Source: Pseudomonadota bacterium
Lineage (GTDB): Bacteria; Myxococcota_A; Polyangia; Polyangiales; JAKSBK01
Assembly (NCBI GenBank): GCA_022361155.1
Contig: JAKSBK010000421.1
Coordinates: forward strand, 1-39,634
Reading direction: 5' to 3'
Length of the DNA: 39,634 nt
Shown: piece by piece, positions 8,987-15,547 of the stretch
Layout of the letters: the number at the start of each line of letters is the position of its first letter
Numbering within the stretch: the first letter of the stretch is position 1
The notes under the pieces: model-generated
What the model was told of the DNA's origin: nothing
The model's database searches: none
Seen by the model: the letters and a program-made list of their open reading frames with translations, nothing else
Translations under genes and position numbers: made by a program

Positions 8987-10702
8987 ATGCGACTCGGCGA
9001 GTCACAGCTACATGGTGCCGACTTGGCGGGCAGGGAGAGCTCCACCCTGGCAGGTGAATGGCAAGCCTCGGAGCTCAAGCGGAGACTCCTATGGCTGACT
9101 GGAGCACGTTTGGCCGTGGCAACGATGCTCTTGGGTGCCACCGTCTTGGTCAAGGGCAGCGAGGCCACCTGGTTCTCATCGTTTACGCCGCGCTTCCTGT
9201 TGCTGTCCATCGCAGCGACCTACAGCGTGTCGCTCCTTTTCGCGCTGTGGCTCAGGGCGCAAACCCCAGGCTCCTGGCTCGTTACGGTTCAGCTGAGCTG
9301 GGATCTACTGCTTACGAGCTGTCTGGTGTTCGTAACCGGCGGCGCGACGAGCGGCAGTACCGTCTTGTTTGGAATCACGGTGCTCATGGCCGCGATCGTC
9401 ACGGGTCCCAAAGCGGCCCGGTGGACAGGCATCGCGGCGCTCACGCTCTACGTCGTGCTGTCCACGTTGCTGGCAGTGGGAGTTGTGCCCGGGCCTCCTG
9501 ATCAAGCGACAGACAACTACCGCCCGAGCTTCGACGCGCTGGTCTATGCGCTGCTGCTCAACGTGCTCGGCCTGGGTCTGCTCACGCTGCTTGCCAGCAA
9601 CCTGGCATCCCGCCTGAGTCGAGCAGGGGGCAAGCTCCGCATCGCAGCCGCGAGCGCGCGTAGCTTGGCCCAGCTGAACGAGGACATCATTCGTTCCATG
9701 ACGTCCGGGCTGCTGACTCTGGACGCCGACGGGCGAATCCGCAGCGCCAACGCGGCCGCCGCGGCGATCTTCGGCATCGGCGAGGGCGAGCTGCTGGCGT
9801 GCCGGCTGCCCGAGCTGATCGAGCTCGAGGCGACCCCGCACCCCGAGGGGACCTGGAAGATCGCACGGGCGGAAGGGCGCGGAAGAAAAGCAACAGGCGA
9901 CAGGTTCCCCGTAGGCTACTCTGTAAGCCCGCTGCGCGGAGCGGATGGACGCAGCTCGGGCAGTTTGATCGTCCTGGAGGATCTGACCGAAATCACGAGG
10001 CTGCGCCGGGCCGCGGAACGCGCCGAACGGTTGGCTACGTTGGGAAGGCTGTCGGTTGGCCTAGCCCACGAGATCCGCAATCCGCTCGGGTCGATCTCGG
10101 GTTCCGTGCAGCTCGTCCGGGAGTCGCCCCTGATCTCGGCCGAGGATAGCCGGCTCCTCGGCATTGTCCTGAGCGAGACCGAACGCCTGAACGACCTCGT
10201 CACGAACATGCTGCAGCTCGGCCGCCCGGCGCAACCTCAACGCGTCACCCAGAATCTGAGCGAGCTCATCGACGACGTCGTCGACATGGCGCGCCGGGGG
10301 ATAACAAACCACAAGCGCATCCGGATCGATAGAACGGACACCACCCGCAACTGCGAGGCGATCGTGGATCCAGCTCAGTTGCGCCAGGTGCTTTGGAACC
10401 TGATCAAGAATGCGATCCAGGCGTCGCCTCACGAAGGCGTGGTGGAGGTCAAGCTGCACCACGAGGGCGACGAGCGTTTGGTCTTCGAGGTCAGCGATCA
10501 GGGCGACGGTGTAGATCCTGCCAACACCGATCGCATCTTCGACATGTTCTACTCGGAGCGCACGCACGGAATCGGGGTAGGCCTGGCCCTGGCAAAACAA
10601 ATAGTCGACGCTCACGACGGTCGCATCGACGTGCTCGGTGCGGACCGGCAGGGAGCGACCTTTCGTGTGACGCTGCCCGCGAAGATGCAGAGCGCCGCCT
10701 AG
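8987..10702 (+). CDS. pilS: Sensor histidine kinase, PilS-like
   Basis: A 571-residue membrane histidine kinase. The N-terminal third holds about six hydrophobic helices (for example LAVATMLLGATVLV, FLLLSIAATYSVSLLFAL, ALVYALLLNVLGLGLLTLLA), as in PilS. A PAS domain follows (LNEDIIRSMTSGLLTLDADG). The transmitter has H box GLAHEIRNPLGSISGS, N box LWNLIKNAIQAS, G1 DQGDGVDP and G2 GIGVGLALAKQIVDAH. All catalytic boxes are intact. It follows pilC closely, which supports PilS over a generic NtrB-like kinase. The expected partner PilR does not follow: the next genes are on the other strand, so the response regulator must be elsewhere if it exists. Confidence 0.88.
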   Translation: MRLGESQLHGADLAGRESSTLAGEWQASELKRRLLWLTGARLAVATMLLGATVLVKGSEATWFSSFTPRFLLLSIAATYSVSLLFALWLRAQTPGSWLVTVQLSWDLLLTSCLVFVTGGATSGSTVLFGITVLMAAIVTGPKAARWTGIAALTLYVVLSTLLAVGVVPGPPDQATDNYRPSFDALVYALLLNVLGLGLLTLLASNLASRLSRAGGKLRIAAASARSLAQLNEDIIRSMTSGLLTLDADGRIRSANAAAAAIFGIGEGELLACRLPELIELEATPHPEGTWKIARAEGRGRKATGDRFPVGYSVSPLRGADGRSSGSLIVLEDLTEITRLRRAAERAERLATLGRLSVGLAHEIRNPLGSISGSVQLVRESPLISAEDSRLLGIVLSETERLNDLVTNMLQLGRPAQPQRVTQNLSELIDDVVDMARRGITNHKRIRIDRTDTTRNCEAIVDPAQLRQVLWNLIKNAIQASPHEGVVEVKLHHEGDERLVFEVSDQGDGVDPANTDRIFDMFYSERTHGIGVGLALAKQIVDAHDGRIDVLGADRQGATFRVTLPAKMQSAA

Positions 10703-10905: not shown

Positions 10906-12426
10906 CTAGCTCCCCTGCGCGATGGCCCGTCCGACACGTAGGCCCAATGCGTAGATGGACAGCTGCGGTGGTACGCCGATCGATCCGGGAAACAGCGAGC
11001 CGTCCGCGACCCATAGGCCCTCGACATGGTGGTGCTGGCCGTGGCTGCCGACCGCGGCCTGGGATGGGTCGTCGCCCATGGGCACCGTTCCCATGGGATG
11101 CGCTGCTGCAAGATCGACGTAGCCGGGCGTCAACTCGAGCCGCGCCAGCACCTGTGCGTGACCGGGATCGGTCAGGACGCGGGGCGGCGTGGTTGGAACC
11201 AAGACCTTTCGGGCGCCCGCCGCGAACAACAAGCGCGCGCACGCGCTCAACCCCATGGCAAGCTGGCGCCGATCGGCGCGGGAGGGCCAGTAGTCGATAC
11301 GCTGATTCAGGTCTCCGTCGGGGGATACTCGCCCGTGGCTGTCGTCGTGCAGCACGGCGGTGAGCGCGCCAAGGTGAGCATAGCGTGTCATGAATTCCCG
11401 ATGCAGCGCGCCATGGCCGGGGAGCATCGACGCCACGCCGGCCGGATGCGCGACTGCCGGGACGATCCAAATGCGGCGCTCGCTTCCGGGGTCGAAGTCG
11501 AGGAACTCCGTGCACTCGTAGGCCTGTGGGATGCCCTGCCAGGCGCGGACGGGCGCCTCGAACTCGCCTGCCACCACCACAGCCGGGTGCAGGCGCAGTC
11601 GCTTACCCACCTCGTCGCCCGGGTCGGGACACCGCGAACGCAGCAGGATCGCAGCGGTGGCCGTTGCCGACCCCGACAAACACACCCGGGGTGCCTCCAC
11701 TTCGACCCGACCCAGCGGCCACTGGCGCTCGGGGTCAAGCGACACGGCTTCAACGCCGACAGCGGCATTGCCTCGCAGCACAACACGCACGGCCTGGCAT
11801 TGGGTCACGACCTCCGCGCCCGCGGCGACGGCAGCGGGGATCAAGACCTTGGCGGCGTTGTTCTTCGCGTCGTAGGCGCAGCCGAGCTCGCAGAATCCGC
11901 TCCCGATGCAGCCGCTGCGGTTGTGTTGCACCGGTCCGCCCCGATACCCTAGCGCCTTGCAGCCCTGCTCGAGCAGCCGGTTGTTGCGGTTCCGGAGTGC
12001 CGGTGGAATACCCGAAACACCCAGCATCCGCTCCACGTCCGTGTAGAGCGCATCCCAGGTCCCGCTGTCGAGGCTGCCGAGACGACCCGCGGCTGTCCAA
12101 CGCTGCAGTAACGTCCTCGGGATGCGCTTGCATAGATTGAGGTTGTGCACTGTGGAACCGCCAACCGCGCGTCCCTGCAGCACCCTGATCCCACGATCGG
12201 CAGTCATGCGATTGCCCGCTTCCCATAGCAACCTGGGGAACATCTCTTCTTCGCGTTGGGTCATGTCTGCGGGTGAGAGAAAGGGACCCGCTTCGAGCAC
12301 GATCACCCGCATGCCAGCCTCGGCAGCGGTCTTGGCCACCATGGCGCCGCCCGCACCGGAGCCAACCACGCAAAGGTCGGCCTCGAGCGCCAGCGGCTTC
12401 GGGAGTTGTGAAGCGTCGAAGATCAC
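10906..12426 (-). CDS. GMC-family flavin oxidoreductase
   Basis: A 506-residue glucose-methanol-choline oxidoreductase. It has the FAD-binding site LCVVGSGAGGAMVAKTAAEAG ending in VIVLEAGP, the GMC signature region VLQGRAVGGSTVHNLNLC, a Cys cluster (GCIGSGFCELGCAYDAKN), and a C-terminal active-site block AAAHPMGTVPMG followed by GLWVADGSLFPGSIGVPPQL. GTG 12426 is chosen because it starts just before the Rossmann motif and overlaps the upstream stop (GTGA). A longer frame to 12591 runs through the upstream gene and is rejected. GMC dehydrogenases often work with a small Gluconate_2-dh3-type subunit and a cytochrome. Here the small-subunit-like domain is the C-terminal part of the upstream protein. 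No signal peptide is seen. The substrate is probably an alcohol or sugar, not identified. Confidence 0.9.
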   Translation of the reverse strand: MIFDASQLPKPLALEADLCVVGSGAGGAMVAKTAAEAGMRVIVLEAGPFLSPADMTQREEEMFPRLLWEAGNRMTADRGIRVLQGRAVGGSTVHNLNLCKRIPRTLLQRWTAAGRLGSLDSGTWDALYTDVERMLGVSGIPPALRNRNNRLLEQGCKALGYRGGPVQHNRSGCIGSGFCELGCAYDAKNNAAKVLIPAAVAAGAEVVTQCQAVRVVLRGNAAVGVEAVSLDPERQWPLGRVEVEAPRVCLSGSATATAAILLRSRCPDPGDEVGKRLRLHPAVVVAGEFEAPVRAWQGIPQAYECTEFLDFDPGSERRIWIVPAVAHPAGVASMLPGHGALHREFMTRYAHLGALTAVLHDDSHGRVSPDGDLNQRIDYWPSRADRRQLAMGLSACARLLFAAGARKVLVPTTPPRVLTDPGHAQVLARLELTPGYVDLAAAHPMGTVPMGDDPSQAAVGSHGQHHHVEGLWVADGSLFPGSIGVPPQLSIYALGLRVGRAIAQGS

Positions 12427-14066
12427 CTTCGAGCCGCCCGGGGCAGTGCTCCACGGGGTGCGACGAGGCGCTCGTACGCGGGCCAGCGCGCTCGCTTCGG
12501 GACAGCCGCGCCGTTGTTCACCCCTGCCAGCGGCCCGGGATACTCCAGCGATGCCCATGTTTGGGGCTGCTGGTAGTGGGCGAAGAAACACAGCGCCCGG
12601 ACCGCCTTGTAGGCGTGGCGCAACACGCCCTCGCGGGTTGCAAGCCCGGCCAGGAAGCGTTCGCGTTGCTCGGGCTCGAGCTCGGTAAGACGGGAGACCT
12701 CGAGTCCCAGCACAGTCCCGTGCTCGAGCAGCGCCAGCAGTCTGTGGACTTCACGATGCAGCCAAGAAGGCATGCGTGACAGCAGCGCATCGACTTTGTC
12801 GGCCACGGCGTAGAGCCGGTCGCCTCGAGGTGCTGGCGGAAGTAACGCCTCGGCGATCGCATCCAGGATCTGTGCTTCGGTGGCGGACAACACACGACCT
12901 TGCCAGTTTGGCCGCGGTGGATAGCCCGACAGCCGTGACCAGATCAGCGCGCCACCCGCGCCCAGACCGGCCCCCGCGATCCAGATTCGACGCCCCGGGC
13001 GAGATCCGGGTTCGGATCCGGTTTCGGTGGCTTGCAGGCGAGACGCCAACGCCGAGGGCAAGCGCTGCTGCCAGTCATCGGTTCTTGGGAGCCCCGGACG
13101 ATGCGGCGTGACCCAAAACAGGATCCGGGAGCGCCGTTCTCTGCTGGGGATGCGCATGCGTCGCGCATCGGCCAAGAGAGCCGCCATGGCCTTGCCCGAG
13201 TAGATGGGCTCGAGGGCAAGCCCGTACGCCTGGAACGTCTCGCAGACGCGGCTCGAGGCTGCTGTGGCCACGCCGTAGGCGCTGCCGAGCTGGCTGCGAT
13301 CGATGCGGACCGGCACGGGCTCGCAGCGCCCGGCACCCGGCACGTGCCGCCCCCGCAGCCAGCGGATCACGCGGCGCTGCAGCTGATGCAGCCTCCAGTC
13401 TGGGCTCAGCGTCCGCTCCACCACGGCGATCGCGTGAATCGTCGTTCGCAGGCCAGCGAGCGCAAAGCCCACGGACAAGCCGGCCGCGATCCCGCCGCTG
13501 CCCATGGGCACGTACACGCGCTCGGGCTCAGGCAGCTCTCCGCTGCGGATCTGCTCGCTCAGCTCCAGCCCCGCGGCAGCGATCCCGGCGATGCCTGCTT
13601 CGGCCGACGCGCCCGGTGCAATCACAGGAGCGCCGTTGCGCGCCTTGCCGAGAAGCAAGAGCGGGTCCTTGATGGCCAGCGCCGTGCGCGAGGAATGGAA
13701 ACGTAAGCTGGTGGGGCCCGACGCCACGAATGCGAGGTTTTCGAGCACCTGTTGGCCTGGCGGTTCCCAAAAACACTGGGCCCACAGATGTCTGCCTAGC
13801 TGCTGCGCGGCCGCACACAGGGCGACCAGCTGCCCCGAACCAATGGCTCCGAGAGCGTGCCAGTCAGGTGCGTTCCTGAAAGCCGGTTCAGCCAGCAGCA
13901 CGTCGAGCTTTCTGGCCTTCGTCCCGCCTACGAGCGCGCCGCAGAGGTCGTCCCGTTTGACCCCAAGGTAATCGAGCCCAAGCTCGTCCTCGAGCGCTGT
14001 TAGTCGCTCGACCGGAGTGGGCTCCCTGATCCAGCCCAGCGTGTCGATGCGGTCCCCGAGCAGCAC
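12423..14066 (-). CDS. PLP-dependent enzyme (ACC deaminase/D-Cys desulfhydrase-like) fused to a GMC small-subunit-like domain
   Basis: A single 547-residue frame with two unrelated halves. Residues 1 to about 335 resemble fold-type II PLP enzymes of the ACC deaminase/D-cysteine desulfhydrase group: GVKRDDLCGALVGGTKARKL (putative PLP Lys50), IGSGQLVALCAAAQQLG, phosphate-loop-like MGSGGIAAGLSVGFALAG and LEPIYSGKAMAALLADAR. Near residues 358-380 is an Arg-Arg plus hydrophobic stretch (RRIWIAGAGLGAGGALIW). Residues 390-520 resemble Gluconate_2-dh3 subunits (LSATEAQILDAIAEALLPP, GVLRHAYKAVRALCFFAHY). GTG 14066 is used. The stop overlaps the GMC start, so a 1:1 complex is plausible. Several PLP-contact positions differ from the family norm (Gly for Asn after the active Ser; Ile for Thr in the phosphate loop), so substrate and even activity are open. 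Confidence 0.8.
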   Translation of the reverse strand: MLLGDRIDTLGWIREPTPVERLTALEDELGLDYLGVKRDDLCGALVGGTKARKLDVLLAEPAFRNAPDWHALGAIGSGQLVALCAAAQQLGRHLWAQCFWEPPGQQVLENLAFVASGPTSLRFHSSRTALAIKDPLLLLGKARNGAPVIAPGASAEAGIAGIAAAGLELSEQIRSGELPEPERVYVPMGSGGIAAGLSVGFALAGLRTTIHAIAVVERTLSPDWRLHQLQRRVIRWLRGRHVPGAGRCEPVPVRIDRSQLGSAYGVATAASSRVCETFQAYGLALEPIYSGKAMAALLADARRMRIPSRERRSRILFWVTPHRPGLPRTDDWQQRLPSALASRLQATETGSEPGSRPGRRIWIAGAGLGAGGALIWSRLSGYPPRPNWQGRVLSATEAQILDAIAEALLPPAPRGDRLYAVADKVDALLSRMPSWLHREVHRLLALLEHGTVLGLEVSRLTELEPEQRERFLAGLATREGVLRHAYKAVRALCFFAHYQQPQTWASLEYPGPLAGVNNGAAVPKRARWPAYERLVAPRGALPRAARR

Positions 14067-14536: not shown

Positions 14537-15547
14537 ATGCCAAAGGACGGCTATCGGGTCGCCGTGGTTGGGGCCACGGGCGCTGTGGGGCAGCACATGC
14601 TCGGCATTCTTGCCGAGCGCTCCTTCCCAGTCAGCGAGATCGTGGTGTTTGGCTCCGCGCGCAGTGCCGGCCGCAGGCTCTCGTGGGCGGGCCGCGAGCT
14701 TGCGGTCGCGCCGCTCGAGCCGGCGGTCTTTGCTGGTGTCGAGCTCGCCTTGTTTTCGGCTGGCTCGAGCGTGTCACGCGAGTGGGGGCCTGTGGCTGCG
14801 GGCCAGGGTGCCCTGGTAGTCGACAACTCGTCTGCCTGGCGCATGGACCCCGAGGTGCCGTTGTGCGTGCCCGAGGTCAACCTCGAAGCAGCCCGGAGTC
14901 GGCCCAAGGGCATCGTGGCCAATCCCAACTGCTCCACGATCCAGATGGTGCTTGTCCTAAAGCCATTGCACGACGTGGCGCGGATCCGGCGCGTGGTGGT
15001 TTCCACGTATCAGGCGATCAGCGGCGCTGGCAGCCAAGCCCTCGAAGCGCTGCGAGACCAGCAACGCGGGCTCACGGCGGGTGAAGGGCTCGAGACCGAG
15101 CGCCTTGCGGGCCGGCTGGCGGGTAACCTGCTCATGCACTGGAAGGTCGACCGCAGCACGGGCTACCAAGAAGAAGAGCTCAAGATGCTGCACGAGACCC
15201 GCAAGATCCTGGATGACTCCGAGATTCGGGTCTCGCCGACCACGGTGCGCGTCCCGGTCGAGGTGGGCCACAGCGAAAGCGTCGCCGTCGAGACGGAGAG
15301 GCCCATCACTCCGGAACAGGCACGGAAACTGCTTTCAGACGCAGCAGGAGTCGAGGTCGTGGACGACTTTGCCCAGGGTGTCTACCCACAACCGATCGAC
15401 GTGGCGGGCAAGGACCCGGTGCTGGTGGGCCGTATCCGCGAAGACCTGGGCAACCCAGGGGGCCTTCAGATGTGGATCGTCGGCGACAATCTCCGGAAAG
15501 GCGCGGCGCTCAATGCCATCCAAATCGCAGAACAGCTCCTGCTCTGA
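14537..15547 (+). CDS. asd: Aspartate-semialdehyde dehydrogenase
   Basis: NADPH-dependent enzyme reducing aspartyl phosphate to aspartate semialdehyde, the branch point to lysine/diaminopimelate, threonine and methionine. The 336-residue protein is of normal length. It has the N-terminal nucleotide site RVAVVGATGAVGQHML, FSAGSSVSREWGP, VVDNSSAWRMDPEVPL, the catalytic cysteine in NPNCSTIQM (residue 132), the loop STYQAISGAGSQAL and the substrate-binding RVPVEVGHSE. ATG 14537 gives the conserved N-terminus directly. It stands alone after the tRNAs, and only 4 nt separate its stop from the earliest possible start of the next gene, so read-through into that gene is likely. Confidence 0.97.
   Translation: MPKDGYRVAVVGATGAVGQHMLGILAERSFPVSEIVVFGSARSAGRRLSWAGRELAVAPLEPAVFAGVELALFSAGSSVSREWGPVAAGQGALVVDNSSAWRMDPEVPLCVPEVNLEAARSRPKGIVANPNCSTIQMVLVLKPLHDVARIRRVVVSTYQAISGAGSQALEALRDQQRGLTAGEGLETERLAGRLAGNLLMHWKVDRSTGYQEEELKMLHETRKILDDSEIRVSPTTVRVPVEVGHSESVAVETERPITPEQARKLLSDAAGVEVVDDFAQGVYPQPIDVAGKDPVLVGRIREDLGNPGGLQMWIVGDNLRKGAALNAIQIAEQLLL

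Follow-up and report, generated by a model that had tools for sequence, protein, structure and literature searches.

The analysed DNA (hereafter the window) is a stretch of 39,634 nucleotides, contig JAKSBK010000421.1 of assembly GCA_022361155.1, one of the 608 contigs of a 5.4-Mb draft genome assigned in GTDB to the order Polyangiales of Myxococcota_A. Its minus strand carries two overlapping genes. The upstream gene is a single uninterrupted frame, running from a GTG start codon at 14066 to a TGA stop codon at 12423–12425, and encodes a protein of 547 amino acids (aa) in which a pyridoxal 5'-phosphate (PLP) domain of fold type II is followed by a twin-arginine hydrophobic segment and a domain resembling Gluconate_2-dh3. 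The downstream gene, starting with GTG at 12426, encodes a GMC oxidoreductase of 506 aa (Table 1). An earlier note, made from the letters of the window, had described both frames and their GTGA overlap, and the coordinates were confirmed. The fusion of a PLP enzyme and a small-subunit domain in one protein is real. No paper describing this architecture was found in the open-access literature searched, in line with the earlier statement that no such system had been described; the architecture is apparently new, and the parts themselves are known.

GTDB representative genomes were scanned for this locus, and the frame and the twin-arginine segment were checked separately. Both halves occurred in one frame at 45 loci besides the window, and a GMC gene lay directly downstream in all 46 cases, in agreement with the proposed coupling of the fusion to the oxidoreductase. 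The carriers of the 45 loci are, by name, nearly all Myxococcota or deltaproteobacterial metagenome-assembled genomes (MAGs). The domain order, which was to be looked for across Myxococcota, recurs there: 11 full-length fusions, the window counted, belong to its own order, and many more to other classes of the phylum. Twenty fused proteins aligned end to end with that of the window showed 38–49% identity to it, and in 17 of 21 loci, the window counted, the genes overlap by [AG]TGA. An assembly or frame artefact could be suspected, as the draft genome containing the window consists of 608 contigs, and a frame error in this copy was named beforehand as an outcome that would speak against the fusion. 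However, the same single frame at 45 other loci, one of them on the complete Minicystis rosea chromosome (L139), excludes chance, a frame error, or a chimera, and this explanation can be considered refuted. One fusion–GMC unit (locus L121, JAHEXY010000001.1, 3001–6102) was located on an 832-kb contig of a MAG titled Bacteroidetes; its G+C content is 33% versus 65% in the window. Transfer of this unit between phyla is possible.

The N-terminal part of the fusion protein matched the PALP family (PF00291) with 68.4 bits (E = 8.7e-19, cut-off 35), as the earlier note had assumed. In a family-profile search of PDB sequences, D-cysteine desulfhydrase of Salmonella (StDCyD) ranked first (2.6e-46), and a Foldseek search with the predicted model returned the structure of the same enzyme, 4d8t, as the top match (5.6e-20). 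The active-site residues Lys51, Ser78, Tyr261, Tyr287, and Thr315 of StDCyD, whose roles have been described (PMC3344862), correspond to K50, S77, Y264, Y289, and T320 of the window protein. The first four are invariant in the 21 fusions, and T320, at the position of the threonine binding N1 in the PLP site, is nearly invariant. The PLP catalytic residues are also kept in stand-alone (solo) PLP proteins related to the fusions.

On the other hand, the domain does not fit any of the named groups of this family. Gln77, needed for the use of D-cysteine in StDCyD (PMC3344862), is replaced by Gly76, Asn79 is likewise replaced by Gly, and the position of His80 is variable; models of D-cysteine desulfhydrases gave 58–67 bits against cut-offs of 429–469, and TIGR01275 gave 83.4 bits against 289.4. 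In ACC (1-aminocyclopropane-1-carboxylate) deaminases, the hallmarks are a Glu following the catalytic Tyr and Leu322 (PMC4048297), instead of which the window protein contains S290 and T320; its score with TIGR01274 was 29.1 bits (cut-off 392). Scores for the D-cysteate sulfo-lyase CuyA and for XcbE were 92.4 and 91.9 bits (cut-offs 450). The domain lies far under the cut-offs of every named subfamily and curated equivalog. Such scores, together with the loss of Gln77, Asn79, and His80, could indicate a catalytically dead fold that serves as a scaffold, dimeriser, or folding check, and reuse of the PLP fold as a mere scaffold had been among the earlier suggestions. However, the equivalents of the lysine, the serine, both tyrosines, and the threonine are invariant or nearly so in the fusions and are retained in the solo forms, which makes an inactive domain unlikely. 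Judging from these residues, the PLP domain most likely retains activity as a lyase or deaminase, with altered specificity and a D-amino-acid-like substrate. By analogy with StDCyD, it is probably dimeric.

The C-terminal part was compared with the Gluconate_2-dh3 family, PF13618. It scored 17 bits within the whole protein and 20 bits when taken as a separate piece; the curated cut-off is 23.4. Free-standing homologues of this piece scored 35.2 and 43.4 bits, and 13 of the 19 homologous pieces matched the family at E ≤ 0.01 (best 3.9e-11). Because the free-standing homologues pass the cut-off, the assignment proposed in the earlier note is right, although the copy in the window is divergent. 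A PF13618 search of the window's own genome gave no match over the threshold, which also shows that the domain is divergent. Only chance matches were obtained in a profile search of the C-terminal domain against PDB sequences.

The two domains are joined by a segment in which R359 and R360 are invariant in all 21 aligned fusions, the window included; the mean hydropathy of its 20 residues is 1.11. Free-standing Gluconate_2-dh3 subunits encoded beside GMC genes in related genomes start with signals of the twin-arginine translocation (Tat) type, such as SRRTFVKAFG, TRRRLLKLGLGG, LSRRTFVKAFGAALLAAAGG, and TTRRRLLKLGLGGGVLLG. The mid-chain segment of the window protein, GRRIWIAGAGLGAGGALIWSR, can be aligned with these N-terminal signals. 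Conservation of a Tat signal is widespread among gluconate-2-dehydrogenase subunits (PMC10924467). The fusions retain the twin arginines of this signal, but in the middle of the chain and not at the N-terminus. As judged from the alignment, the mid-chain segment of the fusions corresponds to the N-terminal Tat signal of the free-standing subunits, so that the PLP enzyme was placed before a complete signal-bearing subunit. The window's genome, like the seven relatives tested, encodes TatC.

Another explanation is that the fusion is cut by proteolysis, or translated from an internal start, to yield two separate proteins whose expression alone is linked. All the parts do exist separately, the predicted model contains a low-confidence linker (predicted local distance difference test, pLDDT, <50 for residues 354–374), and in-frame GTG or TTG codons precede the arginine pair in some of the genes. 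However, no internal start is conserved, and candidates are rarer than expected: the 30 codons before the arginine pair contain 1.2 in-frame start codons per gene versus 2.0 expected, and 16 of the 46 genes have none. A conserved internal start is therefore unlikely, and the origin of a separate subunit in this way was rejected. Since the single frame is also kept throughout the phylum, the existence of two separate proteins seems improbable.

The downstream protein matched the Pfam families GMC_oxred_N (8.5e-35) and GMC_oxred_C (2.1e-21), and no N-terminal signal peptide was visible in it. In the DET-type FAD glucose dehydrogenase of Burkholderia cepacia (BcGDH), Cys212, Cys218, and Cys222 are the ligands of a 3Fe-4S cluster, and the gamma subunit provides the Tat signal with which the GMC catalytic subunit carrying this cluster hitchhikes (PMC6719666). 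The same C-x5-C-x3-C arrangement was found in all 76 GMC proteins compared. Going by the cysteine spacing alone, the window GMC protein probably contains a 3Fe-4S cluster in addition to flavin adenine dinucleotide (FAD). The catalytic histidine is present, and the position of the second catalytic residue, where Asn or His is expected, is occupied by Pro486 within a GxPPQ motif invariant in all fusion GMCs. This proline, a feature of a large GMC clade, is common to the GMCs of the fusion loci, of an unfused operon (see below), and of the nearer free-standing pairs; distant free-standing GMCs keep Asn.

Table 1. Features of the fusion–GMC unit in the window
Feature	Position	Strand	Basis
Fusion gene, 547 aa: PLP domain, twin-arginine hydrophobic segment, and Gluconate_2-dh3-like domain	12423..14066	-	Single frame in 45 further loci
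PLP fold type II domain, D-cysteine desulfhydrase-like	13152..14024	-	PALP PF00291 match, residues 15–305
Codon of K50, predicted PLP Schiff-base lysine (Lys51 of StDCyD)	13917..13919	-	Invariant in 21 fused proteins
Linker, residues 341–357	12996..13046	-	pLDDT low or falling in the predicted model
Twin-arginine hydrophobic segment, residues 359–378, putative internal Tat-like signal or anchor	12933..12992	-	R359/R360 invariant; alignment with free-standing Tat signals
Gluconate_2-dh3-like domain	12534..12881	-	PF13618 match, residues 396–511, below cut-off
GTGA overlap: stop codon of the fusion gene and GTG start codon of the GMC gene	12423..12426	-	4 nt
GMC oxidoreductase gene, 506 aa	10906..12426	-	GTG start at 12426, stop at 10906; Pfam matches
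GMC C173-x5-C179-x3-C183, spacing as in BcGDH Cys212/Cys218/Cys222	11878..11910	-	HMMER alignment
Codon of GMC catalytic His443 (His476 of BcGDH)	11098..11100	-	Alignment
Codon of GMC Pro486, at the site of BcGDH Asn519 (second catalytic residue)	10969..10971	-	Alignment

Quick phylogenetic trees with Shimodaira–Hasegawa-like approximate likelihood ratio test (SH-aLRT) support and midpoint rooting were built for the PLP and GMC proteins. The PLP tree placed fused and solo forms together in a clade (support 100) distinct from other members of the family. The window GMC and its counterparts from the remaining fusion loci formed a single clade (support 100), which grouped with the GMCs of subunit–GMC pairs lacking the PLP enzyme. 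Stand-alone PLP genes of the fusion subfamily were found in Sorangium and its relatives (loci L071–L077, L148, L149, L159, and L163). Because the Sorangium protein nests among the fused Polyangiaceae (branch support 95 and 94 in two trees), this lineage has most likely lost the small subunit and the GMC protein, as far as the trees can tell, and the solo gene is less likely to represent the ancestral state. The frame preceding it in Sorangium is thioesterase-like (hotdog), as judged by inspection alone. The sister group of the fused clade consists of the PLP-only relatives L097 and L098 (genomes G486 and G294), which have neither a small subunit nor a GMC gene nearby. This lineage is a possible source of the fused PLP domain.

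In a different class of the phylum, at least 15 genomes encode the same three kinds of proteins as an unfused operon, comprising the PLP enzyme, the subunit with a Tat signal, and the GMC protein. The operon GMCs (support 99) and operon PLP proteins (support 95) each form a clade of their own, and the operon as the direct ancestor of the fusion is unsupported, since both proteins belong to other clades. Because they fall outside the fusion clades, a PLP enzyme of this family likely joined a subunit–GMC pair twice, independently, if the tree topologies are correct; given the apparently separate operon association, the partnership would have arisen more than once. A divergent succinic-semialdehyde-dehydrogenase-like gene (530.8 bits, cut-off 521) is conserved beside the operon and is absent beside the fusion. 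The operon and this gene lie in a syntenic region (L094, 2914–7798, and L224–L243).

Analysis of the flanks of the fusion loci revealed no third conserved gene beyond the fusion and the GMC gene, so the neighbourhood does not name a pathway. In the window, the unit is flanked by two plus-strand frames recognised by inspection of their translations: a sensor histidine kinase-like frame convergent to it (8987–10702) and an aspartate-semialdehyde-dehydrogenase-like frame divergent from it (14537–15547). Neither is conserved beside other fusions.

From these data, we infer the export, topology, subunit contact, enzyme activities, and metabolic link of the encoded proteins as follows. The C-terminal half of the fusion would be a small subunit of Gluconate_2-dh3 type that acts as a Tat hitchhiker and brings its own twin-arginine signal. 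Binding of this subunit to the GMC flavoprotein, which has no signal, would take place in the cytoplasm, and the subunit would carry its partner through the Tat translocase. Since the PLP enzyme is fused in front, the signal would not be lost as a cleaved N-terminal peptide and could act as an N-in/C-out membrane anchor. The PLP domain would stay on the cytoplasmic face, and the subunit–GMC dehydrogenase, with FAD and the 3Fe-4S cluster, would be located in the periplasm, where the GMC protein could oxidise an alcohol. Such a tether would fix the stoichiometry of the two enzymes and their placement on opposite sides of one membrane, while the overlapping start codon would fix the joint expression of the two genes. 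We give an even chance to the preferred view that the two genes produce one membrane-tethered assembly with the PLP enzyme on the cytoplasmic side and the dehydrogenase in the periplasm. More tentatively, a working internal Tat signal would follow an enzyme folded in the cytoplasm, so that only the C-terminal hitchhiker and its bound GMC protein are translocated and the PLP enzyme stays tethered on the inner face; such a two-sided pair in one polypeptide would pass on a physiological signal or link both sides of the membrane through a shared pathway.

The earlier note had suggested channelled chemistry between the two active sites. If the mid-chain segment is the equivalent of a Tat signal, a cytoplasmic PLP enzyme and a periplasmic GMC protein are implied, which argues against direct channelling. 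Thus, of the overall interpretation offered there, the domains, the fusion, its coupling to the GMC gene, the recurrence, and the lack of a described system were supported, and channelling was not. The sites could share substrates if the complex were wholly cytoplasmic or faced the cytoplasm, the segment being a plain anchor or an interface. This agrees with the fusion, the overlap, the conserved gene pair, and the lack of a signal in the GMC protein, and an N-terminal extension ahead of a Tat signal is unusual. However, both arginines are invariant, true N-terminal Tat signals can be aligned with the segment, Arg-Arg in preference to Arg-Lys or Lys-Arg would be unnecessary in a plain anchor, and the PLP enzyme and the subunit–GMC pair each occur without the other. 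A cytoplasmic complex is therefore considered rather unlikely.

Several findings weigh against the proposed two-sided assembly. The Gluconate_2-dh3 match of the window protein is under the Pfam cut-off, and a fold search with the model of the C-terminal domain (predicted template modelling score, pTM, 0.68) gave no significant PDB match, the gamma subunit of BcGDH included. The twin-arginine segment is short and only moderately hydrophobic, with hydropathy values of 0.85–1.9. Tat signals are known at N-termini; the open-access literature searched gave no example of one working downstream of a folded domain of 340 residues, and the acceptance by the Tat system of a signal behind a folded domain this large is an assumption. 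No electron-acceptor gene was conserved near the fusion loci. The PLP part of Sorangium stands alone, with a stop codon at its end and no close GMC gene, the PLP gene occurs without the subunit–GMC pair in five genomes of the operon class, and many subunit–GMC pairs in the window's order lack the PLP enzyme. Since the PLP gene survives alone and many pairs do without it, the coupling is not obligatory, being useful rather than essential.

If the two-sided assembly exists, Tat signals are not restricted to the N-terminal positions described but can also function downstream of a folded 340-residue domain. It would also mean that a PLP enzyme of amino acid metabolism has been linked recurrently to a periplasmic flavin dehydrogenase, once by fusion and once by operon formation, in a phylum with much unusual metabolism. 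Carriers amenable to genetic work include Minicystis rosea for the fused form and Sorangium for the PLP part alone.

Among known systems, the gamma and alpha subunits of BcGDH (PMC6719666) resemble the window unit in that a signal-less GMC protein is encoded beside a Tat-signal-bearing small subunit of Gluconate_2-dh3 type, as well as in the spacing of the 3Fe-4S ligands and the catalytic histidine. Unlike in BcGDH, the small subunit in the window has a PLP enzyme before its signal, Pro replaces Asn519, and the sequence similarity is remote; no conserved gene for a multi-haem subunit was present beside the fusion unit, haem motifs not having been specifically searched. StDCyD (PDB 4d8t; PMC3344862) shares its fold and five active-site residues with the PLP domain but differs in the Gln77, Asn79, and His80 positions and is not fused to further domains; within the D-cysteine desulfhydrase/ACC deaminase family, the fusion PLP domains form their own clade beneath all named-subfamily cut-offs. 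The free-standing Gluconate_2-dh3 and GMC pairs of Myxococcota (L025–L035) likewise have a small subunit with a Tat signal and a closely related GMC protein (45–53% identity in the nearest), but the PLP enzyme is neither in nor beside them. The unfused operon (L094, L224–L237, and L240) encodes the three protein kinds in the same order as the fusion unit but does so in three genes, with separate PLP and GMC clades and an adjoining divergent aldehyde dehydrogenase gene.

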